Assembly (NCBI GenBank): GCA_026645575.1
Contig: JAPKMW010000062.1
Coordinates: 1 to 64,000, forward strand
Direction of reading: 5' to 3'
From: Caldilineaceae bacterium
Lineage (GTDB): Bacteria > Chloroflexota > Anaerolineae > Caldilineales > Caldilineaceae
Length of the DNA stretch: 64,000 nt
Position 1 is the first letter of the stretch. Each line of letters opens with the position of its first letter. Position numbers and translations under genes: made by a program. A model generated the notes under the pieces. That model did not search any database and had not been told where the DNA came from. It worked only from the letters and a program-made list of their open reading frames with translations. Below are positions 5,344-62,415 of this stretch, one piece after another.

Positions 5344-5979
5344 TTATGAATTTTTGAGCGAGCGTAAATAGGTTACCAGTCGATGTACTTGCGTGCTTGG
5401 GTTGTCGGTCTGATTTTGTATAGCTTGTTGCCCTGCTCGTTCCGCATGGCACATCGCCAGATCCGTGTATCGCATCAATTGTAGATAAATGTGTTGGCTG
5501 CCTTTGCTGTACTCCGGTAAATATACCTTGAGATCGCGCAACACATGCTGACCGGGTGAATAGGATTCTGACCGGGCATAGGGTTTTGTGGTAAAGATGA
5601 AGTGCAACAGCAGCCAATATTCAAAACAGGGCACCGACGTAATGGCAGCAAAGACCGGTGTGAGTTCCGCAGAAGCTAACTCGCGCACGACCTGATGGTA
5701 AGTCGAATGTTCATCTTTATCAAAGACACAGAAGACCCGATCAAAATCCCCTTCTTGCTGATAGCGCCGTTTGGCATGAGCCACCACACTTTTCGGGCTG
5801 GGATCAGAATCGCCATCAATCTCCACATTGGCGGTGTTCAACTTCAGGTGATCGACCAGTTCCCGAAAATAGTTTGGCTCCGTCTTGCTTCCTTCACAGA
5901 CGATCAACACCCGATCATACGAAGCCCGTTTAGGGTGCCGCCGTTGCAATTCTCGAAACTGTCGTGCCTTACGCGCCAT
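5344..5979 (-). CDS. RloB/AbiLii-like protein (Toprim-like defence effector)
   Basis: 211 residues of the RloB family. The N-terminus is basic (MARKARQFRE...), then VLIVCEGSKTE (24-34) gives the conserved Glu of a Toprim-like fold. VFDKDEH (85-91) supplies the acidic metal-binding residues, and FEYWLLLHF (119-127) is a hallmark block. RloB proteins are found with AAA15 ATPases in restriction-linked loci and in AbiL phage-abortive systems, where they are presumed nuclease or RNA-modulating effectors; the mechanism here is inference. It overlaps the upstream AAA gene by 11 nt, so the two are translationally coupled. The 35-nt gap to the SDR gene leaves room for read-through into the metabolic operon. 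Confidence 0.87.
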   Translation of the reverse strand: MARKARQFRELQRRHPKRASYDRVLIVCEGSKTEPNYFRELVDHLKLNTANVEIDGDSDPSPKSVVAHAKRRYQQEGDFDRVFCVFDKDEHSTYHQVVRELASAELTPVFAAITSVPCFEYWLLLHFIFTTKPYARSESYSPGQHVLRDLKVYLPEYSKGSQHIYLQLMRYTDLAMCHAERAGQQAIQNQTDNPSTQVHRLVTYLRSLKNS

Positions 5980-7261
5980 TCACGCCTTCCAGTATGCTGT
6001 TTGCCGTGCGAAAATAAGGCAACGCCCCATACCGCCCCTGCAAATAATGCTTCTCCAGATTCTCCACTCCTTTGCGTGGGCTAAAATCGCTCAGTGGATA
6101 GAGCGTCGTTGCATTAAACTCATCTTTCTCCGTAAACCACACTTGATCGCGCCGGAACACTTCCTGGTTCAGGATCGAAGTTTCATGCGTTGTAAAGATC
6201 AATTGCGCATTGTGCCGGTTCAAGTGATTATCGTGAAACATCTGCACCAAAAACTTTACCAAATTCGGGTGCAAATTATCATTCAGCTCATCCACAATCA
6301 AAACTGATCCCTTTTGCAACGCTGCCAACCAAGGCCCGGCTAGGGCAAAAAACTTACGCGTCCCATCCGATTCTTCCTTTAGTTCCAGCGAAAAGCGCTC
6401 CCCACCACCACCCACATGCACCGTCTTTACCTCAAACTGCTCTCCCTCCGGCTCCACGGGGCGTTCAGCCAGCATCTTCGCCGCCATCTCCATGCGCCGC
6501 ATGGGGTATTTTATCTCATATTGGTACTTCCGTTCAACCTCTAGATCAGCGATGGCAAAATCAGCCGCCTGCAAAAAGTGCAACACCTGCTGCTTCCCCT
6601 CGCCGTTCCCCACTTGCTTGATCGTAAAATCAGCCGTCAACGGTGTATGCCCATACACCTGCAATGTAGACTGAAACCAATCAAAAACCGGCTGCAATTG
6701 CGCGCTATTCAACTGAATCGCCGTCGACAAAAACAAGGCATTCGGTCGCGTCGCCTCTTGCCAAAGATATTTCGGCCCGGTCAGCTTCTCCGTATTGCCC
6801 CATTCATACTTCTGTGTTTGCGGGTTAAACTTCCGCTCGATCCAACTCTGCGAACGCCCCTTGGGGAAAGCGAACAACCACTCTTCTAGGATCTGCTGTT
6901 TGGACGCCACAAAGCCATATTGATAGCGCACATCATCGACCACAAAGTGTACCTCAAACTCTGTAGGCTGGCCTTGCGTCTCACGATCAAAGAGATAGGG
7001 CGTCACCGGCACTTCATCCCCGCGCTGGCTTTGCGCCGACCAGAGGACGATGGCGACCATAGTCTGCAACGCCTTGACCAAGTTCGACTTGCCGGACGCA
7101 TTAGGCCCATAGATAGCAGCCGTGCGCACCAGATCCAGGCGACCTTCCAACACAGCGGTTGTGTTTGTGCTTTGCAACTCGCTGCTGCTGGCGCTCACCA
7201 TAGAGAGGGTTTGTTGATGTTTGATTGAACGGTAGTTGGTTACAGCAAATTCTATTAGCAT
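5969..7261 (-). CDS. AAA15/AbiLi-type ATPase, partner of RloB
   Basis: 430-residue ABC/SMC-like ATPase of the AAA15/AAA21 (OLD-related) group. The start FAVTNYRSIK is typical. Walker A is GPNASGKSN (52-60), a signature-like SDGTRK precedes Walker B LIVDELNDNLHP (Asp324/Glu325), and the H-loop is FTTHET (His359). A long insert between Walker A and B (about 70-300) is the usual sensor-type region. With RloB it forms an AbiLi/AbiLii or RloA/RloB-like pair, probably an anti-phage abortive system in which the ATPase senses infection and licenses the Toprim-like partner. That role is inferred from family knowledge. The ATG at 7261 begins the conserved fold. Confidence 0.87.
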   Translation of the reverse strand: MLIEFAVTNYRSIKHQQTLSMVSASSSELQSTNTTAVLEGRLDLVRTAAIYGPNASGKSNLVKALQTMVAIVLWSAQSQRGDEVPVTPYLFDRETQGQPTEFEVHFVVDDVRYQYGFVASKQQILEEWLFAFPKGRSQSWIERKFNPQTQKYEWGNTEKLTGPKYLWQEATRPNALFLSTAIQLNSAQLQPVFDWFQSTLQVYGHTPLTADFTIKQVGNGEGKQQVLHFLQAADFAIADLEVERKYQYEIKYPMRRMEMAAKMLAERPVEPEGEQFEVKTVHVGGGGERFSLELKEESDGTRKFFALAGPWLAALQKGSVLIVDELNDNLHPNLVKFLVQMFHDNHLNRHNAQLIFTTHETSILNQEVFRRDQVWFTEKDEFNATTLYPLSDFSPRKGVENLEKHYLQGRYGALPYFRTANSILEGVNGA

Positions 7262-10257: not shown

Positions 10258-13152
10258 CTACCGCCGAAACAGCGACAGCCCCACCGGTAGCGACTCGCCA
10301 AACATCCACTCCTGTTCGGCCTTATCGAGCGTCGTGACTGGATTGTTTAACATCTCTTGCAAATGGGCTGCATCTGAACGGCGCGACAGCCAGGTTGCGA
10401 CCCGCTCGCGTAACTCTTCGGGAAGATCGCGCGACCGATCATCGGTAAAACGGGCTAGCAGGATCAGCGCGTTGGCGGCGCTGTTGGTTGGTTCCAAATT
10501 GAGCTTTAACAGCTTTTCCACCCAAGCGGCTGCCTCTGTACTGGCAATCAATCGATCCAGCGGACCGTAAATTGGCGTGCGGGCGCCAAAGCGGCTCAAC
10601 GCCCACAACTCTTTGGGGTGCGGTTTGTTCTTGCCCCACTTCTGCCAGAGTTCACGCCCTAATTCGACTTTGACCTCCGGTGTGAGCCATTCCAGGTTTG
10701 CCAGCATCATCCAAAATTCTAACTCTTCCCCAGCGCCCAGATGCCCGCCAAATTGATTTTTCCCTTTTTTCTGCTTCTTGTTGGATGGCAAATAGGGCCG
10801 CGCCTGTTGATAGATCTGCTGCTGCTGCCCCACATTCAGCCCACCGGCCACCCGCTGCCAGAAGACCCACCACTCGGCCCGGTTTTGGATTTGACGACCA
10901 AATTGTAATCCTTGCAATTGCAGCTTCCAGACCTCTTTCATGCGCCACTCATCCAGCGAATCGCCATAGCCGGGGCGCAGGCAGAAACCCAGCAGGTTAT
11001 ACCAGCGCATTTCAACCTCAGCACTCAATTTACGCTGTTCGCCCACTTCCAAGAAGGTATCGGCCAGTGTGCGCAACAGCGGCAGCGGCCACTCCTCTTT
11101 GGGGAGATCAAGCGTTTCTTCTAGATTTTTACGCAATGCTTCGGGCGGATACTGTTTGCGCTCTTCACCAGGTTGAAAGGTTTTACGGATGAGGGTTTGC
11201 GCCTTCGCCACCGTTTCCGGCGCAATCAGCGCAACCACGGGGGCGTCATCAGCATTCTCGGCTTCGGTCAGTTGCGCTTCCAGCGGTTGACGCACATCAA
11301 ACCGCAACTGCCAACGATGATTGCTCTGCTGCGATTCACACCAAAGTTCCAGTGTTCCCACCTCGGTCAGATGCACCGCCAGTTGCACGGGAATCCGTTG
11401 GGCTAACCCTTTACGGCCATAACGCAAGACCGTGCGAATCGGCGGCAACTGGCTAATTTCGCCAGCCGTCAGTTGGACAATCTCGCCCGATTGATCACCC
11501 AGGCGTGTGCTAGAGCTAAACATTTGGAATGCAACCGGCTGATTCGTTAGCGCTTCAAATTGTGGTTCACGGAGGTGGAGGCGGAAGCCTTCTTCGGCGC
11601 CACGCGGGGCAACACAAACAGCCGTTTGGATCGCTTCACCCTCCGCGTTCTGCGTTGGTTGTCCTGGTTCAGCCGCGACGGCAATGAAATAGGCACGTGG
11701 GCTACCACTGCCAACCCGCACCCCTTCACCCAAACGCACCAGACCATAATAGGCCGCCCCCAAGGCAACCGCCAGTTCCGGGTTGGGGTTGTCTAGTTCA
11801 ACAGGTTGCCAGTTGTCAGCGGCTACCGGCTGGAACCAACTTTGCACCAATCCCTGCAAGCGGTTACGAATCCGTGCGGGAATTAAAGCGCCACCGTTAA
11901 AGAGCAGAAAATCAGGGTAAACAGCGGGGCGACCCGTTTCGCTCTGCAACAAGGTTTGAAAGCGCTGCCAGAAGGCCGCCATATGCCGCGTGATGGCCGG
12001 ATCTTGCACATAGGGCAAGCCAAATTCAGCAAGGCCGCTCCGCCGCGCCTGTTCGGGCAGCGCCGTTAGCGGCACTTCGGGAAAGAAACCATCCAGGATG
12101 ATGCGATCCGCTTCGGCGCCAGTGAGCGTTGTTTTGCGTGTGCCGGCAATCAAGCCACTGCCGGCGCCAACGACCGTCACATCGACTTTGGCATCGGCGG
12201 TCGGCGGCAGGTTGAGCAACGTCTCCTTCGCCTTGCGACATTGCGCCACCAGTTGATGCCAGTGCTGCGCTTCAACTTTGCCGCTCTTACCGCCTAGTTG
12301 CCGTTCCAGATGGCGCGCCAGGGTGATGTCAATGTTGTCACCACCCAACATTAGATGTTCACCAACCGCCAGCCGGTTAAAACGCAGCCCCTTCTCACCG
12401 GCATGAACACCGATGATCGAAAAGTCGGTCGTGCCGCCGCCGACATCACAGACCAGGATCAGTTGCCCATCGTGCATCTGTTCTTGCCAGTCAGTTTCGT
12501 GGGTGGAGAGCCAGGCATAGAAGGCAGCGAGCGGTTCTTCCAGTAAGATCGCGTGGGCAATCCCCGCCTGTTCGGCAGCAGCCAGGGTCAATTCGCGCGC
12601 CACTTCGTCAAAGGAGGCCGGCACGGTGAGAATGATCAATTGCTCCGAGAAACGGTCGGCTTCATCCTCCGCTGCCATGACGGCATTCCAGGCTTCGCCC
12701 ATGTGCTGTAAGTAGCGGGCGCTGGCTTCCACCGGCGAAACCTTTGGTACATCAGCTTTGGCGCCCCACGGCAAGATCGGCGCCGTGCGATCAACCCCAC
12801 TATGCGAAAGCCAGGACTTGGCCGACGACACAAGGCGACCGGCCACGAGCGCGCCTTGCTCCCGCGCAAACTCACCAACGGCGTACGCCCGCTCCATCGC
12901 CCAGGGTAGTGCTGTACTCCCCGGCGGCAGGTCATACGCGCCGGGTAAGTAAAGGAACGACGGTAGCATCGACCGCCGCGCCACCTCCCCCGCTGCCACT
13001 AACTGCGGAATCTGGAAAAGTTGAATCGGACGCGCACTAGTTACGCTCGCCGGTTGCCGTAAATCCACATAGGCCACCGCCGAATTGGTCGTCCCCAGGT
13101 CGATGCCGATAATGTATCTATACTTCAGAAAGCACTCTTCCCCTAAACTCAA
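10258..13152 (-). CDS. Hsp70-like protein with long C-terminal extension
   Basis: About 964 residues. The N-terminal 470 residues form an Hsp70/actin-like ATPase: YIIGIDLGTTNSAVAYVD (phosphate-1), ILVCDVGGGTTDFSIIG (phosphate-2), LLFNGGALIPARIR (adenosine region). The C-terminal roughly 300 residues are a predicted helical region unlike the DnaK substrate domain, so this is not the housekeeping DnaK. It lies 22 nt downstream of a shorter paralogue, with the DUF2760 gene as first member of the set. The start is uncertain: the best in-frame codon is a TTG at 13152 behind AGGGACG; a CTG closer to the fold is also possible. Confidence 0.88.
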   Translation of the reverse strand: MSLGEECFLKYRYIIGIDLGTTNSAVAYVDLRQPASVTSARPIQLFQIPQLVAAGEVARRSMLPSFLYLPGAYDLPPGSTALPWAMERAYAVGEFAREQGALVAGRLVSSAKSWLSHSGVDRTAPILPWGAKADVPKVSPVEASARYLQHMGEAWNAVMAAEDEADRFSEQLIILTVPASFDEVARELTLAAAEQAGIAHAILLEEPLAAFYAWLSTHETDWQEQMHDGQLILVCDVGGGTTDFSIIGVHAGEKGLRFNRLAVGEHLMLGGDNIDITLARHLERQLGGKSGKVEAQHWHQLVAQCRKAKETLLNLPPTADAKVDVTVVGAGSGLIAGTRKTTLTGAEADRIILDGFFPEVPLTALPEQARRSGLAEFGLPYVQDPAITRHMAAFWQRFQTLLQSETGRPAVYPDFLLFNGGALIPARIRNRLQGLVQSWFQPVAADNWQPVELDNPNPELAVALGAAYYGLVRLGEGVRVGSGSPRAYFIAVAAEPGQPTQNAEGEAIQTAVCVAPRGAEEGFRLHLREPQFEALTNQPVAFQMFSSSTRLGDQSGEIVQLTAGEISQLPPIRTVLRYGRKGLAQRIPVQLAVHLTEVGTLELWCESQQSNHRWQLRFDVRQPLEAQLTEAENADDAPVVALIAPETVAKAQTLIRKTFQPGEERKQYPPEALRKNLEETLDLPKEEWPLPLLRTLADTFLEVGEQRKLSAEVEMRWYNLLGFCLRPGYGDSLDEWRMKEVWKLQLQGLQFGRQIQNRAEWWVFWQRVAGGLNVGQQQQIYQQARPYLPSNKKQKKGKNQFGGHLGAGEELEFWMMLANLEWLTPEVKVELGRELWQKWGKNKPHPKELWALSRFGARTPIYGPLDRLIASTEAAAWVEKLLKLNLEPTNSAANALILLARFTDDRSRDLPEELRERVATWLSRRSDAAHLQEMLNNPVTTLDKAEQEWMFGESLPVGLSLFRR

Positions 13153-13174
13153 TCGTCCCTATGGGACGAAAAGA

Positions 13175-15052
13175 TTATGCCGCTTCTTCTACCGGTTCTC
13201 CGTCAGCAACGTCTTCTTCATCATCGGCGGATTGGTTATTGGGTTGTTCGCGAATGTTGAACTCTAACTTCCACTTGCGGTCGCTATTGCGCGCCACACA
13301 CCAGAGTTCCAACGTGCCAACCTCGGTCACTTTGCTTTGCAGCCAGACCGGGATGATCGCGCTGCCGGCCTCTTGATCGGTGCTGGGCAGGGTGGCTTCC
13401 AGGGTGGCAACTTCTTCAATTTCACCGCCCCAATCATCCACTTCTTCGCCAACGGCATCTTCTTTGCGCGTGCTGGAGGCCAGGAAATGGAACACCGCTT
13501 GTTCGCCAACCACCAGACCAAACTCTTTGCTGCGAATATGTTCTTCTTCGCCCTCTTCCATGCCAAAGGGGACGACGCAGAGCGCTTTGAGCGGCGTCGG
13601 AATCCCCGGCACGGCTGGCATGGTGCTTTCGATGCCGATATAGTAGGTGCGGGGGGCGCCGGCGCGGACCCGAATGCCCCGCCCTTTGCGCACCAAGCCG
13701 TAGTACGCGGCCCCGATTGCCACGGCTAAATCCAGGTCAGCCGCCGGCAATTCCCGCAGATCTTCGTTCCCACTCCATTCGCGCAGCGCGTCCAGCACCT
13801 GTTCCCGCAATGGTTCAGCCTTCATCACACCACCATTAAAGAGGACAGCGGATGGGTACGGCGTGGTTGCAGTTGATTCCTCACCAGCGGCCTGTCGGCT
13901 CAAGAAATAGGCCAGGTGACGGGTAATGGCCGGATCGGAAGCATAAGGCAGGCCCATCTCGCGCACACCAACCTGTGGTTTGCGTTGCGGGTAATCGGTC
14001 GCTTCCCCAATGGGGAAGAAGCCGCTAACGAGCATTGTTTCTAGCTCTTGGCGTGTTAACTCTGTGCGGATCGTACCACCAATGAGGGAAGTGCCGCGAC
14101 CGAGAATAACCAGCGGCTCTTTCTCCAGTTCAGGATCGTTGAGCAACCGTTCTTTAGCTTTGCGACAACTCTGCACCAGACCACGGAATTGCCAGTTATC
14201 GAGATTGGTCTTCTTCTGGGCCAACTTGGCGCGCATGGCATAGGCCAGCGTCAGATCCATGTTATCGCCACCGAGCAGGATGTGATCACCCACGGCAGAG
14301 CGCCGTAAAACCAGATTCCCTTCTTCGTCGATCACTTCGATCAAGCTAAAGTCGCTGGTGCCGCCGCCAATGTCACAGATTAGAATCGTCTCGCCCACTT
14401 TGATCTGTTCGCGCCAGTTGCCGTGGTGTTCTTCCAGCCAGGCGTAGAAAGCGGCGGTCGGCTCTTCCAAGAGCGTCAGGTTGGACAAACCGGCCAGTTG
14501 CGCGGCCTGCACGGTCAACTCCCGCGCCACGGCATCAAACGAAGCCGGGACAGTCAGGTACAATTCCTGTTCTTCCAGTCGTGCTTCCGGGTCATCTTGC
14601 GCCATTTGGTGATTCCAGGCATTGCGCAAGTGTTCTAGGTAGCGCGCACTGGCTTCCAGCGGCGAAAGACGACGCCCATCCGCCGGTGCATCCCACGGCA
14701 GAATGGCTTGGGTGCGATCGACGCCCCGGTTACAAAGCCACGATTTGGCCGAAGCAATCAGCCGGTTGGGCAACTCGGCGCCACGCGTACGGGCATATTC
14801 GCCCACTGTATAATCAATCGCCGGCTGCCAGGGTAAGGCCAAGCCACCTTCCGGCACTTCATGTTCTCCCGGCAGCAGCAAAAACGAAGGCAACAACGAT
14901 TGCGCCTTCACTTCCCCGGCGCTAACAACTTGGGGAATTTCTAATAACTGAATCTCTGGTTGTTCATCGTCGGCTAGATCAGCATTTGTGTACGCCAGCA
15001 CCGTATGCGTCGTCCCCAAATCAATGCCGACAATATATTTAGGTGTACTCAA
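13175..15052 (-). CDS. Hsp70-like protein, shorter paralogue
   Basis: 625 residues. The ATPase domain is complete: KYIVGIDLGTTHTVLAYTN, LICDIGGGTSDFSLIEV, VLFNGGVMKAEPLREQ. It ends in a modest beta domain (VGTLELWCVARNSDRKWKLEF, shared with the neighbour) and an acidic tail rich in D/E. Paralogy with the downstream gene is obvious over the whole ATPase domain and the GTLELWC block, indicating tandem duplication followed by loss or gain of the helical extension. The pair, with DUF2760, probably forms a specialised chaperone set; clients are unknown. The ATG at 15052 opens the fold. Confidence 0.9.
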   Translation of the reverse strand: MSTPKYIVGIDLGTTHTVLAYTNADLADDEQPEIQLLEIPQVVSAGEVKAQSLLPSFLLLPGEHEVPEGGLALPWQPAIDYTVGEYARTRGAELPNRLIASAKSWLCNRGVDRTQAILPWDAPADGRRLSPLEASARYLEHLRNAWNHQMAQDDPEARLEEQELYLTVPASFDAVARELTVQAAQLAGLSNLTLLEEPTAAFYAWLEEHHGNWREQIKVGETILICDIGGGTSDFSLIEVIDEEGNLVLRRSAVGDHILLGGDNMDLTLAYAMRAKLAQKKTNLDNWQFRGLVQSCRKAKERLLNDPELEKEPLVILGRGTSLIGGTIRTELTRQELETMLVSGFFPIGEATDYPQRKPQVGVREMGLPYASDPAITRHLAYFLSRQAAGEESTATTPYPSAVLFNGGVMKAEPLREQVLDALREWSGNEDLRELPAADLDLAVAIGAAYYGLVRKGRGIRVRAGAPRTYYIGIESTMPAVPGIPTPLKALCVVPFGMEEGEEEHIRSKEFGLVVGEQAVFHFLASSTRKEDAVGEEVDDWGGEIEEVATLEATLPSTDQEAGSAIIPVWLQSKVTEVGTLELWCVARNSDRKWKLEFNIREQPNNQSADDEEDVADGEPVEEAA

Positions 15053-15210: not shown

Positions 15211-15939
15211 CTAACCAACTTCCACTTCTGCCGCCGCTACTACCTGTGCATTGGCATTACTCGTCAACTGTGGCAGATCAACCTTCGCCGCTCGCCACCC
15301 GCGATGGCGTACAACGCCCTTAAACGGCGGATTACCGGAGACATTCCCCGTCAACCGAATGGCATTGGCGTCAAAACCAGCAGGGATCGTCACCGTGCTG
15401 CCCTCATCATCCTGCATCACCGGCTCCAATGTCACATGGCTTTCGATACCTTGTTTGCAACCGGCATGAACACTACGCACCGCCGCGCCGATCTGCTCAT
15501 CCTCATACAGGCTGAGATCTTCTTGTAGGAAGTCGATCAGACGCCCTTCTCGTTGCAGGATTGCCAACATTTGGAGAGCAGCCGTGGTCGGCGCCGGTTG
15601 CGGCGGCGCTACCACCGGGGCAGCCTTGGGCGCTGTCGGCGCCCGTTCAACTTTGGGTGCGGGGCGTTCCGGCGCCGGCGGTTCTTTGGGGGCTGGGGCA
15701 GGTGCAACCGGTGTACGTGCCGCAGCGCTGGCTGCTTCATCAATCGCCCGACCACCCAGGAAAGCGATCACCCCAGCCAGCACCAGCGTCAGCACCACAC
15801 CGATCAACAGGAGCGTAACCAGTTGCCCACTGGCCTGTAACGTTTCCCCGGCGAGAAAATAAAGCGCACCGAGCAGCAACGCATTGAGAACGAGCGTTGC
15901 GACGATGGCGCCAATTGTAAAATTTTGTTTTGTCTTCAT
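15211..15939 (-). CDS. DUF2760-domain membrane-anchored protein
   Basis: 242 residues. Two hydrophobic helices (about 8-30 and 36-60) are followed by an Ala/Pro-rich linker (about 75-125) and a DUF2760 domain (about 126-238) recognisable from LQREGRLIDFLQEDLSLYEDEQIGAAVR split over ALQMLAILQREGRL and IDFLQEDLS, with the GWRAAKVDLP end. DUF2760 genes are recurrent neighbours of Hsp70-like genes; the domain may recruit the chaperones to the membrane (inference). The start at 15939 follows GAGTGG. The longer frame upstream reads through a separate hairpin and lacks a ribosome site, so it was not used. Confidence 0.85.
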   Translation of the reverse strand: MKTKQNFTIGAIVATLVLNALLLGALYFLAGETLQASGQLVTLLLIGVVLTLVLAGVIAFLGGRAIDEAASAAARTPVAPAPAPKEPPAPERPAPKVERAPTAPKAAPVVAPPQPAPTTAALQMLAILQREGRLIDFLQEDLSLYEDEQIGAAVRSVHAGCKQGIESHVTLEPVMQDDEGSTVTIPAGFDANAIRLTGNVSGNPPFKGVVRHRGWRAAKVDLPQLTSNANAQVVAAAEVEVG

Positions 15940-20593: not shown

Positions 20594-20621
20594 TTGACAG
20601 CACCAGCAGAGATGCTACATT
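20594..20621 (+). promoter_or_regulatory. Candidate promoter of the ubiquitin-receiver gene
   Basis: A perfect -35 box TTGACA (20594-20599) is followed after 16 nt by TACATT (20616-20621), four of six matches. Initiation near 20628 would give a leader of about 57 nt. A perfect TATAAT at 20665-20670 also exists but lies only 14 nt before the ATG and lacks a -35 box. The ribosome site is AAGGG at 20671-20675. Confidence 0.5.
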
Positions 20622-20684: not shown

Positions 20685-21503
20685 ATGCAAGTTTTTGTTA
20701 AAACCTCAACTGGAAAAACCACCATGATCGAGGTAGAGCTTACCGATACCATTGAGCAAATGAAAGGAAAAATAGTAGATAAGGAGGGAATTCAGCATGA
20801 CCGGCAATGGATTAGGTTCGCTGGAAAACTGCTTGAAGATAACCGAACTTTGGCAGATTACAATATCCAAAAGGAATCCACGGTAAACTTGGCGATTCGT
20901 TCAGGTAATAGCCACTCAGATTTGGAAGCATTTCAGTTCCACAGCTTGCCATCCGACAACTGCCGGGTAGGGGCCAGACATACGCAGGAATCCTATGCTA
21001 CTTTTGGCCCCTACCCGGCAGTTTCTGCAAGTTCGTCGGGTGTAGATTGGAACGTAGAGAATGGGACAAGCCCCAAGAACCTCGCCCCAACGCTCTCTTT
21101 TGAGCCAAGGGTTGACACTGCTACGAAACCGCTTTCGATTTTGATCGTTGATGACGATCTGCAGCTTCGTTTTCTCTTACATAAAATGCTTACTTACGAA
21201 GGATACAGAGTCTACGAAGCCAGCGATGGTGCAGAAGGATTGACTCAATATCATACGATGCAACCAGATTTGCTTGTGCTTGATATTAATATGCCTCGTG
21301 TTGATGGTCTGACTGTTTTGCGCCAAATCCGTATGGCGAACGCAGTTGTTGGGGTTATCCTGATGAGCGCGCGCAAGCAGGAAGCAGTTGCCGGCGCGGC
21401 GCGGGTAGGCTGCGCCGATGGCTATGTCTCCAAGCCCTTTCGCCTCTCCACCATGAGCCAAGAGATCCAGCGGGTAGGCGCCCTCGTGCGCAATCGTCGC
21501 TAA
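20685..21503 (+). CDS. Ubiquitin-domain/response-regulator receiver fusion protein
   Basis: 272 residues. Residues 1-72 are a near-canonical ubiquitin: [12 protein letters not shown] at the start, DKEGI (32-36), FAGK (45-48), YNIQKEST (59-66). Hand alignment to the remembered human sequence gives 48 identities over positions 1-72. All seven ubiquitin lysines (6, 11, 27, 29, 33, 48, 63) are kept. The hydrophobic patch is lost (Leu8 to Ser, Ile44 to Arg, His68 to Asn, Val70 to Ala) and the LRGG tail is replaced by SGNS, so no diglycine is available for conjugation. A linker (73-147) follows, part of it encoded by a perfect inverted repeat. Residues 149-272 are a complete receiver domain: VDDD (155-158), phospho-acceptor Asp200 in LVLDINMP, Ser228 and Lys250 in SKPF. 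It has no output domain. The ubiquitin half is about 41% GC by hand count. No E1, E2, E3 or deubiquitinase-like gene is nearby. Function is unknown: perhaps a phosphorylation-controlled adaptor. Confidence 0.93.
20958..21023. repeat. 19-bp perfect inverted repeat inside the ubiquitin-receiver linker
   Basis: Arms 20958-20976 (AACTGCCGGGTAGGGGCCA) and 21005-21023 are exact reverse complements with a 28-nt loop. They encode residues about 92-113 in the linker, which has no recognisable fold. The element is GC-rich compared with the preceding ubiquitin segment and looks like a palindromic insertion kept in frame. It could also fold in the mRNA. Confidence 0.8.
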
Positions 21504-22016
21504 CCCAGTGACGTTAATAGAGTTTATGTTGGCACACGCAACTGTACAGGAGCTTCGACAATGATTATGTCGATCACCGCTTCTTCCCTGTTAATTCTTC
21601 TCGGCTAATTCTTCTCTACCGGGCTGCCTCATGTGTAACAGGCTGGAATATACCACAGCTAGAAACCGGAAGATAAGCCGACAGGAGATACTGGGTACAT
21701 TCCAAAAAGCAGCGCGTTGGTCAACGTCTCTGGCACGGGCGATAGACGACTGCTCGTTCGGAACTACTTTCCGCCCATGCCCGAAACGTTTTTGCCGGCT
21801 CATGCTTTCTGTCGATGAGCCATTTAATGAACACTCTAACCGTTCCCCACAAGTCCTGGCCAGTGGTAGATTCTAGTATCATAGAAGTGGGTAAGAGAAA
21901 AGATCGTTCATGCCCCAGAGAGAGAATCTACCACTGGCCAGGACTTGTGGGGAACCGTAAGTGGAGTGGGGAAGGTTAGGTGGGGGTAAAAAATCTACCC
22001 CCGACAGGGTGATGGG
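21504..22016. other. Intergenic region without a supported gene
   Basis: About 510 nt between the ubiquitin-receiver gene and the cohesin-like gene. Short open frames on both strands show no recognisable protein and no good ribosome sites. Apart from the long inverted repeat at 21842-21955, nothing was identified. Confidence 0.5.
21842..21955. repeat. 33-bp perfect inverted repeat with 48-nt spacer
   Basis: Arms 21842-21874 and 21923-21955 are exact reverse complements (core CACAAGTCCTGGCCAGTGG). The long arms and 48-nt spacer do not fit a terminator. They resemble terminal repeats of a very small non-coding element or of an internally deleted insertion sequence. No flanking target duplication was found by eye. 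Confidence 0.8.
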
Positions 22017-28722: not shown

Positions 28723-29174
28723 AAATTGATTAATTCCTTTAGCATTGGTAAAATCAGGGAAAATACGTATAGTAGCAAGAGACCAGTATAGCACACGCAC
28801 CGGCGATTCATCCAAATAAATCGTCACTCCTAGCGAATCCATCACGAAGGCATCGATTACAAAATAATGGATTACGGTTAAGTTAATTAGACAACGAACA
28901 CCTCAAAACTCTGCCATATACAGTTTAAGTTCTAGACAGATATAAAGAGATATAGTATAGTAGAGGACAATGTACGTAATTACAGAAAAAGCGATGTCCA
29001 AGAGCGTGATAACAGCCTCGTGCTGCTGGTTTGCTTGTGTAACGACTTAGCCCGCTCCTAGCCGCACCCCCGCGGGGGTGCGGCTAGGAGCGGAGTAGTT
29101 ACTTGCATGTATATTTTCTAAGCAGATCACTGTAAGTGTATTTCTGTAAGTATATTTAATGGGAAGCGACCTTT
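28723..29174. other. AT-rich divergent intergenic region with a large palindrome
   Basis: About 450 nt between the rfbC start and a small plus-strand frame. It contains promoter-like AT-rich sequence for both directions but no pair of boxes good enough to annotate. The palindrome at 29052-29093 is its main feature. Confidence 0.5.
29052..29093. repeat. 42-bp perfect palindrome, GCTCCTAGCC family copy 1
   Basis: CCGCTCCTAGCCGCACCCCC followed by its exact complement, with no loop (centre CCCCCGCGGGGG). Outer part shared with two other copies in the window (29630 and 47750); the core differs. It has no T-run and sits in a divergent region, so it is not a terminator. Confidence 0.9.
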
Positions 29175-33705: not shown

Positions 33706-36057
33706 CTATGCTTCTAGTGCCTCTTGTTCTTCACCATCTTCTTCCTTCTTCAACAGCACTGCCCGCCCCTGCCCACTGCCCAGATCCTCGCCGATGATCC
33801 CCTTGGCGGCCAGTTGTTCCATGAGGCGGGCGGCTTTGGGGTAGCCGATGCGGAGTTTGCGTTGGAGCATACTGGTGCTGCAATTTTTCATGCCCCGCAA
33901 GATATCGATGGCGTCCTGCACCAGTTCGTCTTCGTCCTCTTCCTTGTCCAGCAGACCGGCCCACGGTGCGACCGTTGGCGGTTCACCGGCGCCTTTGGCC
34001 TTCCAGTGTTCCGTCACGGCGGTGATCTCCGGGTCGGTGACGAGACAACCCTGGACCCGTTGTAACTTCGCCACGTCAGGGCGCATGAGCAACATGTCGC
34101 CGCGACCGAGCAACCGTTCGGCGCCGGGGGTGTCGAGGATGACGCGGCTGTCGATCTGGCTGGTGACGGCAAAGGCGATGCGGGTGGGGAAGTTGGCCTT
34201 GATCAACCCCGTCACCACATCAGTACTGGGACGTTGGGTCGCCAGGATCAGGTGAATGCCGGTGGCGCGCGCCATCTGCGCCAGGCGACAGATCTGCCGC
34301 TCAATGTCATCGGCGGCGGTCATCATCAGGTCGGCTAATTCATCGATGATGAGGACGATGAAAGGCAAGGGCTGCAGGGCATCCTCGCCTTTGCTTCTTT
34401 GTCGTGCCAGGGCGTTGTACGAATCCAGGTTGCGCACGCCCACCGACTTAAAGAGTTGATAGCGGTCATCCATCTGCAAAAGGAGCCAGGTGAGCGCGCC
34501 CATCACCTGATCAACCTCGATGATCACCTTGCCCAGCAGGTGCGGAATGCCGTTATAGCCCTGCAACTCGACCATCTTGGGATCGACCATGACAAAGCGC
34601 AGCGACTCCGGCCCGTGGCGCATGAGCAGGCTGACAATGATGGCATTGACACAAACCGACTTACCCGAACCGGTGGAGCCAGCGATTAACATGTGGGGCG
34701 CACGGCCAATATCCATGACAATCGGCGCGCCGGAGGTATTGCGCCCCAACGCCACCGGCAGCGCCCCCCCGTCTTTAAAAGGCTTGCTTTCGACAATACC
34801 GCGCATACTCACCACCACTTTTTCGGTGTTCGGCACTTCGATGCCCACATAGGGCCGCCCCGGCACTGGCGCTTCAATACGCACTGCCGGCACAGCCAGG
34901 GCCAACGCCAGATCATCAGCCAGACTCACAATGTTGTTGACCCGCACCTTGCGGCGTTGGCCGGCTCGTTCCAGATAGAGCGGCTCGACGCCAAATTGGG
35001 TGACAGTCGGCCCGCTCTCGACATGCACGACGCGGACGGGGACGTTGAAATCTTCCAGTGTGCTTTCAATCAACACCTGGGTTTCGCGCACCCCAACCTC
35101 GCGATAGACGCCCACGTCGGCAATCAAGAGATCGACTTTGGGCAGACCAGCCAGCGATTTTGCGGTTGGCTTTGCTGGTGGGTGCTCCTGTGGGACCGGT
35201 GCTTGCGCCTCCTGAGCGGTATGACTTTTCGGTTGTTTGGAGGCGGCTTTGGTGCGGGAACGGGCGGGGGCAGCGACAACTTCAGCCACGGGTTCGTCTA
35301 CCGGCAGCGGCTCGGCAACCGCGTCCGGTCGAATTAATGTCGTCCGCTCACTTCTTCTGGGCTGCGGCTGGGGATACGCTTGATCGGCTGCCACGTAATT
35401 TGCCCCCGTTGGTCGCGTTTCCATCGGCGGCGGACGGACAGCGAAGGCGGATAAGAGCGCGGCCCCTTGGGCCAAACCCTGCTTGACCAGGATCGTCACT
35501 GGCGCCAGGGACGTTGGCACCGTGACCAGATTGCTTGCCAGCGGAGCCAGGTAGATCAGGGGCGTGTAGCGAAAGGTCAAGTACGCGCCGATCACAGCCA
35601 GGAGCAACACAACCGCTAGCGCCGGCCAGCGCCCTAACCCGGCCATCAACAGACTTCCCAGCGCCCACCCTACCAGACCGCCATTCAACCCATCAAAACG
35701 CGCTTCCCAAGTGACAACCTCATTGTTCCAGAGAAAGGCGGTCATCATGCCGCTGAGAAAGAGCAACTCGGCGCCGACAATGGCCTCAATCCCCCAATAA
35801 CCGGCCCGTTCGCCTAACATAAAGACGGCGCCGATGATCAAAAGCGCCACCCCAAACCACCCCGCTGTCCAGCCCAACGCCAGGACGGCATACGGCACCC
35901 CGGCAGTGCTATTGGCGCCGCCGCGCAACAAGGTGAGCAGGATCCCACCGCCGCCGAGGAAGAGGGCCAACCCGATAAATTCCAGCGGCAAGTTCTCTTT
36001 GAGATCCGCCAACCAGGAACGATTGGAGATTTCACTCTTGCGTGTGACACGTCTCAT
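33706..36057 (-). CDS. ftsK: DNA translocase FtsK/SpoIIIE
   Basis: 783 residues; pumps DNA through the division septum. Four to five N-terminal transmembrane helices (about 27-190) are followed by a linker rich in Pro/Ala/Lys (about 235-300). The motor follows with Walker A GSTGSGKS (460-467) and Walker B VLIIDELADLM (Asp572), ATQRPSTDVVTGLIKANFP and the C-terminal gamma winged helix (about 700-770, MLQRKLRIGYPKAARLMEQL). Complete and of normal size. Its ATG overlaps the stop of the upstream membrane GAF/HTH gene (ATGA), so they are translationally coupled. Confidence 0.95.
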   Translation of the reverse strand: MRRVTRKSEISNRSWLADLKENLPLEFIGLALFLGGGGILLTLLRGGANSTAGVPYAVLALGWTAGWFGVALLIIGAVFMLGERAGYWGIEAIVGAELLFLSGMMTAFLWNNEVVTWEARFDGLNGGLVGWALGSLLMAGLGRWPALAVVLLLAVIGAYLTFRYTPLIYLAPLASNLVTVPTSLAPVTILVKQGLAQGAALLSAFAVRPPPMETRPTGANYVAADQAYPQPQPRRSERTTLIRPDAVAEPLPVDEPVAEVVAAPARSRTKAASKQPKSHTAQEAQAPVPQEHPPAKPTAKSLAGLPKVDLLIADVGVYREVGVRETQVLIESTLEDFNVPVRVVHVESGPTVTQFGVEPLYLERAGQRRKVRVNNIVSLADDLALALAVPAVRIEAPVPGRPYVGIEVPNTEKVVVSMRGIVESKPFKDGGALPVALGRNTSGAPIVMDIGRAPHMLIAGSTGSGKSVCVNAIIVSLLMRHGPESLRFVMVDPKMVELQGYNGIPHLLGKVIIEVDQVMGALTWLLLQMDDRYQLFKSVGVRNLDSYNALARQRSKGEDALQPLPFIVLIIDELADLMMTAADDIERQICRLAQMARATGIHLILATQRPSTDVVTGLIKANFPTRIAFAVTSQIDSRVILDTPGAERLLGRGDMLLMRPDVAKLQRVQGCLVTDPEITAVTEHWKAKGAGEPPTVAPWAGLLDKEEDEDELVQDAIDILRGMKNCSTSMLQRKLRIGYPKAARLMEQLAAKGIIGEDLGSGQGRAVLLKKEEDGEEQEALEA

Positions 36058-38060
36058 GAGACAACCGGCTCCTTACTCCGGGCGGTGCGAGTTTCGGGGC
36101 GAATTGCGCGCAGATCCAGTTCGCCGCCATTTTCCTGTTCCATTTCGGTTAAGACCCGCGCCACCTGACCAATGGCCACGCGCTGTTTGCGGTAGAGATC
36201 ACTTTCACTCATTGCCAGCCGGTCGGCGATCTCTCGCACCTTGCGCCCTTCGATGAAACGCATTTCGAGAATGTTGTAGAGTAGCCACTCTGGCGCACTC
36301 AGGTTAGGTTTACCCTCTGGTCGCAACTTTTCAATGGCCGCCCCCAAGACCAGGCGCAATGCTTTGGTGGGATCGCCATCAGAATGATTGACCGAATCGT
36401 TCACGACGCGCAGTTTGACCAGTGGACTGAGGGTCAACTTGGGGCCGCCCCAGTAATGACTCAACGCATCTTTCACCCAGGTTTCAAATTCGGGGCTATG
36501 AATCGGGCTGGGATCAAGTAATGCTTGCACTGGTGTCGTGTCGCTCTCGCTGGCGCTATAGGGAGAGAGGCTACGCCATTGTTGAATCCGGTCAATATCA
36601 GGGATGATCTGGCGCAGCGAGACAAAGACCCCTTGTTGCAATTTGCGGTCGGCCAGGGCGCTGGCAATGCGTTGTAACATCTTGGTCAGGACAGCAGTCT
36701 CATCCTGGGCGAGCAAAGGGGTTGCCGTGCGCGCTTTTACACCGAGTAAACCCAACACCCGTTGGTTCTTGTCCCCGTTAGTTGTCGGTTCGAGCAGCGG
36801 CCAGATCCAAAAACCAGCATGGGCGACCGGGCGCAGCTTGCCCTCCTGGCGCAGCGCCCGGTTGAGCGCATCGTTCCAATCTTTCACGGCGACAATCTGG
36901 TTCCGACTTTCGTCCGGCCCCACGGTTGCCTCTAAAATTAGATCCGGCCCCACTACGGCGGCGGCAAAGCCAGCGGGGACGCGCAATAATTCACAAAGCG
37001 CAATCAAATTGTTCTCTAGAAATTCCCGCAGATCGCTGGAAGTCAATAGGCGGCGATCCAGTTCGCGCAGCCAGGCCACCTCTTCGCGATCTTCGCGATA
37101 GACCAACCAATCCACCCAATTCTTGGTCACACTCAGAAAAAGCTGGCTCACAATGATCACACCAGTGATCACGCTAAACAGCACCATATCACGCGGCAGG
37201 CCGAGAATGTTTTCCACTGTCGGCAAGGTCTGCACGGCGAGAATCACCAGAATGGCGACAATCGGCCCGCGCATAAAGAAGCGCATCAAGCGATAGCGCA
37301 CCACGCGATCAGGCGTCAGCACATTGAAATAGACCACGGTGTAACTCATCAGCACGAGCAAGAAGGCGACGGTTATATTGCCAAGGAGAGAAAGTAACAG
37401 CACCGGCAGGCTAACTTGCGAAGCGACCATCACCCGGCTCAAGACGACCAAATAGGGGAAGACGCCAATCGCCGGGGCCGCAAAGCCCAGCAGGAGATAG
37501 GTCATCCGCATACGTGTACGTTCAGTCAAACAACGGGAACGGGCTTTCCAGATATTGCGCAAGGCGAGCAAAACAGTCGAGACAAAGTAGAGCAGAAAGA
37601 ATTCCAGGTATGACCCGGCTGCCAAATAGTTGATCGGTGGACTAAAGCGCACGTTCCCAACAATCCGGTTACTAAAGAGCGCGGCAACCGCGCCTAATAC
37701 CCCAAGAGCGACAATCAGCGCAGCCACCCACCGGCGACGCCCAGTGCGATAGTTGGTTGTCTCCAAAACAGCTAGGGAGAAAAGATAGTAGGCCGCCGGC
37801 GCAAAGGCAACCCCCAGCCATTGAAAACGCAACCAGCGCTCGGCCGATTCCGCCGTGATCACGCGATCAATGGCGACATCGCTGGCATAGACCACCATGA
37901 CACAGGCCAATAGGAGGGCAAAGCGCCGGGCGACCGGACTGAGAAAGTTATAGGTAAAGGTGTAGGCCATGAGCGAAAAGGCCAAAATCACCACAATTGA
38001 TGAGAGCGCCACATTGCTGAAATTGAGCAAGTGGGTTACGGTAAAGAGTGAATCGTTCAT
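36054..38060 (-). CDS. Membrane sensor with GAF-like region and C-terminal helix-turn-helix
   Basis: 668 residues. Seven to eight predicted transmembrane helices fill about 12-320, resembling the N-terminal 7TM region of some histidine kinases. A linker (DREEVAWLRELDRRLLTSSD) leads to a GAF-like module (about 345-510). There is no kinase H-box or ATPase. The C-terminal part (about 590-645; EWLLYNILEMRFIEGRKVRE, IADRLAMSESDLYRKQRVAI) looks like a helix-turn-helix. It could be a membrane-bound one-component regulator. It is coupled by a 4-nt overlap to ftsK and lies 3 nt from the preceding gene. Domain calls beyond the helices are tentative. Confidence 0.65.
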   Translation of the reverse strand: MNDSLFTVTHLLNFSNVALSSIVVILAFSLMAYTFTYNFLSPVARRFALLLACVMVVYASDVAIDRVITAESAERWLRFQWLGVAFAPAAYYLFSLAVLETTNYRTGRRRWVAALIVALGVLGAVAALFSNRIVGNVRFSPPINYLAAGSYLEFFLLYFVSTVLLALRNIWKARSRCLTERTRMRMTYLLLGFAAPAIGVFPYLVVLSRVMVASQVSLPVLLLSLLGNITVAFLLVLMSYTVVYFNVLTPDRVVRYRLMRFFMRGPIVAILVILAVQTLPTVENILGLPRDMVLFSVITGVIIVSQLFLSVTKNWVDWLVYREDREEVAWLRELDRRLLTSSDLREFLENNLIALCELLRVPAGFAAAVVGPDLILEATVGPDESRNQIVAVKDWNDALNRALRQEGKLRPVAHAGFWIWPLLEPTTNGDKNQRVLGLLGVKARTATPLLAQDETAVLTKMLQRIASALADRKLQQGVFVSLRQIIPDIDRIQQWRSLSPYSASESDTTPVQALLDPSPIHSPEFETWVKDALSHYWGGPKLTLSPLVKLRVVNDSVNHSDGDPTKALRLVLGAAIEKLRPEGKPNLSAPEWLLYNILEMRFIEGRKVREIADRLAMSESDLYRKQRVAIGQVARVLTEMEQENGGELDLRAIRPETRTARSKEPVVS

Positions 38061-47669: not shown

Positions 47670-47840
47670 AACCATTACGCTGAAAGGGTCTCCATTGATC
47701 TATGAAGACGCTTTCAGCGGAATAAACAACTTTTTGCGTAACTACACAGCCCGCTCCTAGCCACACCCCCGCGGGGGTGTGGCTAGGAGCGGGTAGCCTG
47801 AGCAGTTACCTTTTTGCTTGATTACTTTGGCTTATTCCAA
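47670..47840. other. Convergent intergenic region
   Basis: No gene. It lies between the HNH relic and a convergent gene and carries the palindrome at 47750-47793, flanked by ordinary AT-rich sequence. Confidence 0.5.
47750..47793. repeat. 44-bp perfect palindrome, GCTCCTAGCC family copy 3
   Basis: CCCGCTCCTAGCCACACCCC and its exact complement with centre CCCCCGCGGGGG and no loop. Differs from copy 1 only by a compensatory G-to-A/C-to-T pair in the inner arm, which keeps base pairing. Preceding bases ACAGC resemble those before the other copies. Confidence 0.9.
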
Positions 47841-53736: not shown

Positions 53737-54105
53737 TTACGCGCCGCGTTTGCGCAGCAGCCCTTCCATCTTCAATGTCAGTTTTTCTAAGGTGAATGGC
53801 TTTTCCAGGTAGGATAAATGGTTGTCGTGGCGAAACTTTTCCATGGTTGACCCTTCCGGGTAACCGGACATTAAGACAATATCAACCTTGGTGTTTACCT
53901 TACGCAATTCGCGCAGCGTGTCACCGCCACTCATAACCGGCATTTGCATGTCCAATAAAATGACATCAATAATGGACTGATTTTCGATAAAGCGTTGAAG
54001 CCCTTCCTGACCGTTGGCGGCGGAGAGGCAGCGGATCGCCGATAGCTCCAAGATTTCTTCGATGACCTCGCGCAACGCGGCTTCATCATCAATTACAAGC
54101 ACCAT
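53737..54105 (-). CDS. Stand-alone response regulator receiver
   Basis: 122 residues, only a receiver domain: acidic Asp6/Asp7, phospho-acceptor Asp52 (LLDMQMP), Ser80 (LMSGYPEG) and Lys102 (LEKPF). No output domain, so it works through protein contacts like CheY/Spo0F. It directly follows a gene for an HPt protein (separated by a MITE-like element) and precedes an SH3b lipoprotein by 4 nt. Ribosome site AGGACGAG. Confidence 0.92.
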
Positions 54106-59676: not shown

Positions 59677-62415
59677 ATGGAGGAACGTCCTGAAATGAAT
59701 GGCGACGGGCAAAGCTTGCCCGAAATGCCAATGGTGAGCGTGAATGGCGCTCACAACGGTAATGGCAGCGTAAATGGAAGCGCGAACGGTAGCGACAGTG
59801 CCATTTTGATCGGTAATGTGCGCCCCATCTCGATTGAAAGCGAGATGCGCGCCAGCTATCTCGACTATGCCATGAGCGTTATTGTGGCGCGGGCGCTGCC
59901 GGATGCGCGTGATGGGTTAAAGCCGGTCCATCGTCGTATTCTCTATGCGATGCACGACATGGGATTAGGTCCCAGCAGCCCGTACAAAAAGAGCGCCCGT
60001 ATCGTCGGTGAAGTGTTGGGTAAATATCATCCCCACGGCGACACAGCGGTCTATGATGCCATGGCGCGCATGGCGCAAGATTTTAGCTTGCGCTATCCGC
60101 TGGTCGATGGACAGGGCAACTTTGGTTCGGTCGATGGCGATAGCCCGGCGGCCATGCGTTACACCGAAGCCCGCCTGGCGCGCATTGCCGACCCGATGCT
60201 CCAGGACATCGAAATGGATACGGTGGACTGGAACCCGAACTTTGATGACAGCCTGGAAGAGCCGCAAGTGCTGCCGGCCATGTTACCGAATCTCTTGGTC
60301 AATGGCACCAGTGGCATTGCCGTCGGCATGGCGACCAACATTCCGCCCCATAATCTCAGCGAGATTGCGGACGCGATTGTCTATGTCATCGATCGCTGGG
60401 AGGAACGCGAAGAGATCGGCCTGGAAGATCTGATGACCTTTGTCAAAGGGCCGGACTTCCCTACGGGTGGGATTATCCTCGGCACGGAAGGGGTCAAGCA
60501 GGCCCTTGCTACGGGTCGCGGCAAGGTGATGATTCGCGCCAAGACCGAAATCGAAGAAAACAAGGGGGAACGGTTCCGCATTATCGTCACCGAAATCCCC
60601 TATCAGGTCAATAAATCGATGTTGATTGAGCGCATTGCCGAACTGGTGCGCGAGGGCAAGCTCGACCAGATCAGCGACCTGCGCGATGAGAGTGACCGCA
60701 CCGGGATGCGCATTGTTATCGAACTGAAGCGCGGCGCCGCCCCAAAAAAGGTGCGCAATCAACTCTTCAAACATACGGCGTTACAAACCTCCTTTGGCGT
60801 CAACACGCTGGCGCTGGTCAACGGCGAACCGGCAACCTTGGGGCTACGGCGCGCCTTGATCATCTATGTGGACCATCGCTTCGAGGTCATCACCCGGCGC
60901 ACCCGCTTCCAACTGGCCAAAGCGCGCGAACGCGCCCACATCTTGGAAGGTTTGCGCATTGCGTTGGAATTTCTCGACGAAGTGATCCAACTGATCCGCA
61001 GCAGTGACAGCGCCGACGCTGCCCGCACCGGCTTGATGGAGCGCTTTGGCTTGAGCCAGGTGCAGGCGCAAGCGATTCTCGATATGCAGTTGCGCCGTCT
61101 GGCCGCTTTGGAACGGCAGAAGATCGAAGATGAATATCAGGAGATCATGGCGCGCATTGCCTACTTTGAGGATCTGCTCGCCCACCCACACAAGATTCGC
61201 AGCCTGATTCGCGACGATATTCTGCTGCTCAAAGAAAAATTTGGCGACGCCCGGCGCACGATGATTGCCTATGACGCCAACGGCGAACTCAATGACGAGG
61301 ATCTGATCGCCAACGACAACATGTTGATCAGCTATAGCGCTGGCTCCTACATCAAGCGCATGAAGGCTGAAACCTTCCGCGCCCAGGGTCGTGGTGGACG
61401 CGGTATTAAGGGCATGGCGACGCGCGAAGAGGATGAGGTGATCAACTTGCTCTTTGCCCGCAACCTGGACAACATTCTGCTCTTTACCAACAAGGGACGG
61501 GTCTACAGCAACAAAGTTTATGAGTTGCCGGAAGCGAGTCGCACGGCGCGTGGCGCGCATATCGCCAACTTCCTCAACTTGCAGCCGGACGAGACGGTCT
61601 CGACGATGGTAATCGTCCCCGACTTTGAACAGGCCGAATATATCACCCTGATCACCCGCCAGGCGCGTATCAAACGCATGGAGTTGAGCGTCTTTAGTAA
61701 TATCCGCTCGGTCGGTCTACTGGCGATGAATCTTGACCCCGGCGATTCGCTCGACTGGGCGCGCTTGACCAATGGTAATGAGGAATTTATCATTGTCACC
61801 CGCAATGGCAAGGCGTTGCGCTTCCATGAAGACCATGTGCGCGCCATGGGGCGCACCGCCGCCGGGGTGATGGCGATGCGACTCCTGGATGATGACGCCA
61901 TTGTCAGCATGGATGTAGTTAAGCCGGATCATGATCTCTTTGTGATTCATGAACGGGGCTGGGGCAAACGGGTGTCGCTGGAAGAGTACAACGCCAAGGG
62001 GCGCTATACCCAGGGCATGTGGACGACCGACCACACCCGTTTAGGCGAAATCGGCGCAATTGTGGCGGCACGTGTCGTGCATCCGCAAGACCAGATCACG
62101 CTGATGACCAGCCAGGGCATTGTGCTGAGGACCGAAGTGCGCGGTATCAGCCAGATGGGGCGGGCGACCCGTGGCGTGCGCATTGTCAAGATGCAGGAGG
62201 AAGACGCGGTGGCCGCCATTGCCGTCATCACTCACGAAGATTTGACCCGTGGCGTAGACGGCGTCGAGCCAACAGCACCGGGAGTGATCCAGGCGATTGA
62301 AGAAACCGCCGCGAACGAGGTAATTCTCTCTGTCAGCGCCACACACGTTGACGATGGTGAAATGGCGACGGTCATTGCCGAGGAAGTCGAAACTTTAGCC
62401 GAACCAACTGCGTAA
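59677..62415 (+). CDS. gyrA: DNA gyrase subunit A
   Basis: 912 residues; breaks and rejoins DNA in negative supercoiling. Quinolone-resistance region [17 protein letters not shown] has Thr123 and Asp127 at the positions of E. coli Ser83 and Asp87. Catalytic tyrosine Tyr162 lies in [10 protein letters not shown]. The C-terminal beta-pinwheel carries the GyrA box QGRGGRG (about 570-576), so this is gyrase rather than topoisomerase IV. An N-terminal extension of about 45 residues rich in Asn/Gly/Ser (e.g. [18 protein letters not shown]) precedes the conserved start. The neighbouring nuclease-like gene follows after 11 nt. Confidence 0.95.

Follow-up and report, generated by a model that had tools for sequence, protein, structure and literature searches.

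The BfUbb protein of Bacteroides fragilis is 63% identical to human ubiquitin and lacks the terminal glycines; it is reported to block ubiquitination in vitro and to attach covalently to human E1 (PMC3352274). According to a second report, BfUbb is secreted via a signal sequence and inhibits other strains (PMC5705921). The ubiquitin described here resembles BfUbb in being about two-thirds identical to human ubiquitin and in lacking the terminal glycines. In contrast to BfUbb, a single secreted domain acting on other strains, the present ubiquitin begins without a leader and is joined to a receiver domain; its I44 patch is lost.

Other bacterial ubiquitins provide a second point of reference. 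A six-row ubiquitin alignment matched 513 stretches of a GTDB-based collection, of which 450 encode a relative; the claim of the first-pass annotation that near-canonical ubiquitin is rare in bacteria was thus contradicted. By their titles, the best 80 of the 450 loci (L001-L080) come from many phyla and from both isolates and MAGs, some of the MAG loci perhaps being contamination. Together with 12 ORFs from viral contigs they form a comparison set of 92 ORFs, read from stop to stop and including a few near-duplicates; since it was found with two near-canonical peptide patterns, the set leans to canonical ubiquitins. Closest to human ubiquitin among the 92 is L023 (Dyella), one residue off (75/76). 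The proteins of L001-L080 are similar to the present one in that a near-canonical ubiquitin lies mostly near the N terminus and is often joined to another part. Unlike it, most of them have a hydrophobic stretch ahead of ubiquitin, and by the same crude rule (9 of 12 residues hydrophobic ahead of ubiquitin) 78 of the 92 ORFs look exported. Varied tails are fused to ubiquitin in this set, with sorting-signal-like ends in L020, L041 and L080; by eye, one tail recurs in L019, L030, L031, L058, L061, L069, L076 and L077.

The gene lies in a window of 64,000 nucleotides, by which we mean the whole stretch of DNA analysed, and its features are collected in Table 1. Its reading frame starts with ATG, ends with TAA and is uninterrupted for 272 codons. 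Both Pfam families were matched, ubiquitin (PF00240) at residues 3-72 (E 1.8e-22) and Response_reg (PF00072) at residues 152-261 (E 6.2e-27), which bears out the reported single in-frame combination of ubiquitin and receiver. The proposed bacterial-type promoter fared less well: the promoter-like sequence exists, but the 1.8 kb scanned contain three of its kind where shuffled sequence contains 1.7 on average (sd 1.5), which makes it no evidence of a promoter. No in-frame ATG, GTG or TTG occurs from residue 89 to 152, and the only evident starts left to the receiver itself are therefore TTG80 and TTG88.

Table 1. Features of the ubiquitin-receiver gene and its surroundings (positions in the 64-kb window)
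Feature	Positions	Strand	Remarks
Ubiquitin-linker-receiver ORF	20685..21503	+	272 aa; reading frame and Pfam
Ubiquitin domain, residues 1-76	20685..20912	+	L8S, I44R, H68N, V70A; without RGG; GC 0.408
Linker, residues 77-148	20913..21128	+	Mostly predicted disordered (AlphaFold2); all 192 equal gene segments have a higher codon score
Inverted repeat, perfect, 19 bp	20958..21023		Arms 20958-20976 and 21005-21023; inside linker
Receiver domain, residues 149-272	21129..21500	+	D156-D158, D200, S228, K250; without output domain after it
Promoter-like TTGACA-16-TACATT	20594..20621	+	Not above chance for the region

The predicted structure agrees with two domains on a tether. AlphaFold2, run on an alignment of 39 rows with one row present twice, folded both domains with high confidence and gave the ubiquitin part (residues 1-70) a mean pLDDT of 95-98 per ten-residue block. 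Most of the receiver reached a block pLDDT of 92-98, with one block at 74 and the final block at 88, while linker residues 80-108, 112-123 and 125-128 fell below 50. The pTM of the whole fusion protein was 0.52, as expected for two domains joined by a loose tether. Foldseek against the PDB matched both halves, the ubiquitin part to ubiquitins including 1UBQ (TMt 0.97) and the receiver to many receivers.

Residues 1-72 are identical to human ubiquitin at 48 of 72 positions (67%), in agreement with the earlier estimate of about two-thirds. All seven lysines are retained. Six of 14 core positions differ, five by exchange of one hydrophobic residue for another and the sixth being I13T. In contrast, the working surface is altered. 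Homology stops at about residue 72, where human LRLRGG aligns with IRSGNS, so the C-terminal RGG for conjugation is absent, and all four residues of the I44 docking patch (L8, I44, H68 and V70) are changed. In the 92 compared ORFs these residues are largely kept (L8 in 79, I44 in 75, H68 in 82 and V70 in 65); position 44 is V in nine and K, T or S in seven, and Arg in none. These results indicate that the fold is kept and that the features known to serve docking and conjugation have been lost; judged by its residues, the ubiquitin is near-canonical in its core and not in its working surface, contrary to the canonical surface that the first-pass annotation had implied. In a ubiquitin tree of 98 rows, the fusion protein has the longest end branch (0.62, median 0.053), closely followed by P0014 (0.61). 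The tree has too few alignment columns and the two long branches join each other, so that it names no ubiquitin donor.

The other half of the protein resembles output-less receivers of the CheY/Spo0F type in that a complete receiver ends the chain and nothing follows it as an output domain. The acidic cluster, the phospho-site D200, S228 and K250 are all in place, as had been stated for Asp200 and Lys250. A receiver-led search with residues 76-272 returned 53 matches from 366 candidates, among them one near relative, P0121, a protein of 167 aa from a contig of 1,031 bases that is 59% identical over the 124 residues 149-272, to the last residue. Unlike the fusion protein, P0121 carries no ubiquitin, and 43 unrelated N-terminal residues stand in place of the ubiquitin and linker. 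The remaining matches, at most 45% identical, are response regulators, with some sensor-kinase/receiver and CheB proteins. The proposed search for homologous fusions in relatives was thus made in part: it gave this best receiver relative and no fusion, and the ubiquitin-free P0121 is equally compatible with an artefact and with a young gene confined to one lineage.

No second example of the fusion was encountered. Among the best 120 of 825 matches (3218 candidates) in a ubiquitin-led protein search, PF00072 was found only in the fusion protein itself, although a fusion with a distant receiver could rank below these 120, and the 53 receiver-led matches contained no ubiquitin family besides it. 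A phmmer search at E up to 1 detected no receiver in the 92 ubiquitin ORFs, although a single-sequence query could miss a distant one. In a plasmid collection, 3931 records matched, all below 60% identity, and four covered at least 80% of the query in one place; of the 20 listed, none is annotated as ubiquitin and none of the matches starts before query residue 37. Titles and abstract starts in the open-licence literature describe no ubiquitin-receiver fusion, and one paper mentions ubiquitin-like systems and receiver domains separately (PMC7159879). The earlier statement that no such fusion was known therefore stood among the matches listed in the protein, GTDB-based and viral-contig searches, and within the reach of these limited searches the fusion is new. 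Since no second genome with the fusion was found, nothing indicates that selection maintains it.

The three pieces of the gene differ in composition. The ubiquitin segment (GC3 0.421) lies below all 178 equal segments of 32 chosen window ORFs in GC and GC3, and its GC is also lower than that of every 5' segment of these ORFs; its codon score is equalled or undercut by three of the 178 segments. Low GC over 228 nt is, however, a weak marker of transfer. The linker has an ordinary GC, as low in 24 of 192 gene segments, and a codon score of -0.273, which 22.9% of 606 intergenic frames reach or exceed; below 192 of 192 gene segments and above 77% of intergenic frames, it sits between genes and most intergenic frames. 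The make-up of the receiver is within the gene range, though low: among 104 gene segments, nine are as low in GC (0.524), four in GC3 (0.532) and 14 in codon score. Because the GC3 of the receiver is itself low, the contrast between a foreign ubiquitin and a native receiver is one of degree.

The linker also contains a strong hairpin. As RNA, 20930-21040 folds at -57.1 kcal/mol, whereas shuffled sequences average -30.8 (z -7.7). Palindromic elements of the Rickettsia type sit in frame within genes, and the linker hairpin is similar in lying within a reading frame and in an unstructured stretch. Rickettsia-type, REP and MITE elements occur in several copies per genome; within the 64-kb window, the hairpin arm has no other copy with up to three mismatches allowed. 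The hairpin may belong to such a repeat family, and a transcription terminator is an equal reading. If it proved to be multi-copy, the hairpin could be a candidate seam of misassembly. Inverted repeats occur at 14 places in the window, four overlapping pairs at 1073-1148 being merged into one; nine of these lie wholly and one mostly outside the listed ORFs, and four, the linker hairpin among them, lie inside. A hairpin within a gene thus does not on its own prove that spacer DNA once lay there. An open stretch of 72 codons arose in 822 of 20,000 shuffles of the linker, so that it is uncommon, not extraordinary, for a frame to stay open across former spacer DNA. Eight stretches of viral contigs with an exact 16-mer of the hairpin arm were set aside as chance level by a rough estimate. 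Elsewhere in the window, a 59-nt intergenic element containing a perfect palindrome occurs in two copies (29035-29093 and 47734-47792, 90% alike) and is perhaps a repeat family of the host genome; a 39-nt inverted repeat (21836-21961), 95% complementary and with arms 48 nt apart, follows the fusion gene at a distance of about 330 bases.

The bacterial context claimed for the gene was upheld. The gyrA gene (59677-62415) on the same contig of 68,806 bases is 86% identical to a protein from a Caldilineaceae bacterium and 98-88% identical to six others (best 120 of 8000 scored), and window ORFs match bacterial families including FtsK, FtsH, 2-oxoacid dehydrogenase E1/E2, an adenylosuccinate-lyase-type protein and an HSP70-like pair. 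The affinity of gyrA and the many bacterial families among the scanned ORFs make eukaryotic contamination unlikely, and on this evidence the host belongs to the Chloroflexota, close to Caldilineaceae. An origin from Ktedonobacteria, considered at first, was not borne out by gyrA. Pfam was run on 40 other ORFs out of the 189 mechanical ORFs listed in the window, and none of the 40 matched E1, E2 or JAB families of the ubiquitin pathway at E up to 1e-4. The neighbouring genes point to no partner: on the upstream side of the fusion gene is an AAA-TPR protein that matches AfsR/SARP types weakly, and on the downstream side a 298-aa ORF with no Pfam family. No family of an adjacent cognate histidine kinase was matched in the 10 ORFs scanned around the gene. 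An ORF at 36054-38060 has an N-terminal match to HisKA_7TM, and no kinase domain was found in it at E up to 1e-4; a second scanned receiver (53737-54105), 30% identical to that of the fusion protein, lies with an Hpt (54214) about 33 kb away. The window further contains an AAA_21 ATPase (5969-7261) that strongly matches the defence models AbiLi and AriA, and two adjacent HSP70-like genes (10258-15052), one with the DnaK-related DUF3731, with a DUF2760 gene alongside. Within the DUF2760 ORF, on the opposite strand, ARAGORN called a tRNA-Pro (15590-15686), which is probably false, since Rfam at the gathering threshold matches nothing in the window.

The original observation is confirmed, and the protein is probably a young variant of an output-less receiver protein with a putative function. 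The account that we tentatively favor, at somewhat less than an even chance, is that of a young chimeric gene in Caldilineaceae-like Chloroflexota, in which a foreign ubiquitin was joined to a resident receiver, perhaps giving a phosphorylation-gated docking protein. The AT-richer ubiquitin segment would have been acquired horizontally and landed upstream of a resident receiver gene; its stop would then have been lost, and the hairpin-bearing spacer DNA in between would have become the linker. The fusion protein would be cytosolic, since its ubiquitin starts at M1 without a leader, and would not be conjugated, since the RGG tail is absent; the usual I44-patch contacts would be out of reach for its ubiquitin. 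Asp200 may be phosphorylated by a kinase or phosphotransfer protein encoded elsewhere, and a receiver lacking an output domain would relay its effect by protein contact. The ubiquitin fold on its floppy tether could offer a second contact surface, or at least stabilize the fusion, and phosphorylation would decide whether both ends can bind one partner together. For the receiver step this account draws on a well-known family, whereas the ubiquitin step is one that we infer. The phosphorylation-switched adaptor of the first-pass annotation is possible. A bolder version, which we consider unlikely, is that the captured ubiquitin has been wired into two-component signalling, with receiver phosphorylation gating a docking module whose patch was rebuilt to suit a new bacterial partner through the changes I44 to Arg, L8 to Ser and V70 to Ala.

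Ubiquitin as a laboratory fusion tag helps its partner to fold or to be expressed. The ubiquitin could likewise be a passenger that aids folding or expression of a receiver that works alone and might serve as a phosphate sink or as a relay of the CheY kind. This would agree with the losses at patch and tail, with two well-folded domains on a predicted disordered tether, with an intact receiver whose nearest relative is ubiquitin-free, and with the lack of a relative bearing the fusion in the searches made. The mostly conservative core changes and the seven lysines are slightly more than a passenger needs, although a very young fusion would match them too. We regard this explanation as rather unlikely and place the adaptor-type reading a little above it, the evidence separating the two poorly. 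The palindromic seam and the singleton protein, known from one contig, also keep alive a real rival, an assembly chimera in which the hairpin is a repeat where two unrelated genome pieces were joined, and the differing composition of the halves fits this as well. We nevertheless consider it improbable, as the hairpin arm is single in the window, the frame is open across all 72 linker codons and the phase must match too, and the GC per kilobase is similar on both sides of the junction.

The precedent of BfUbb (PMC3352274) raises the idea of a mimic that meddles with eukaryotic ubiquitin signalling, for example in a protist predator. The present protein differs from BfUbb and from most of the compared ORFs in having no export leader, its patch is lost, and its partner is a cytosolic signalling domain, which leaves such a role very improbable. 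An equally slight chance is given to a failed transfer whose product is decaying or was never functional; the singleton status, the non-coding-like linker and the longest end branch of the ubiquitin tree would suit it, but there is no stop within the 272 codons, the active-site residues of the receiver are complete and the core changes of the ubiquitin are conservative.

If the ubiquitin is a passenger or the gene an assembly error, the locus has little import beyond the frequency of ubiquitin domains in bacterial genome records. If the young chimera is real, a signalling gene would be seen soon after its birth, with the donor domain, the spacer and the resident domain still distinguishable by composition. 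If the captured ubiquitin is truly wired into two-component signalling, response regulators would have gained a new mode of output, and domain capture via a hairpin-bearing spacer would have been caught in the act. With a real fusion, one could test directly how new combinations of domains come about and whether a ubiquitin fold can serve a receiver as its output.
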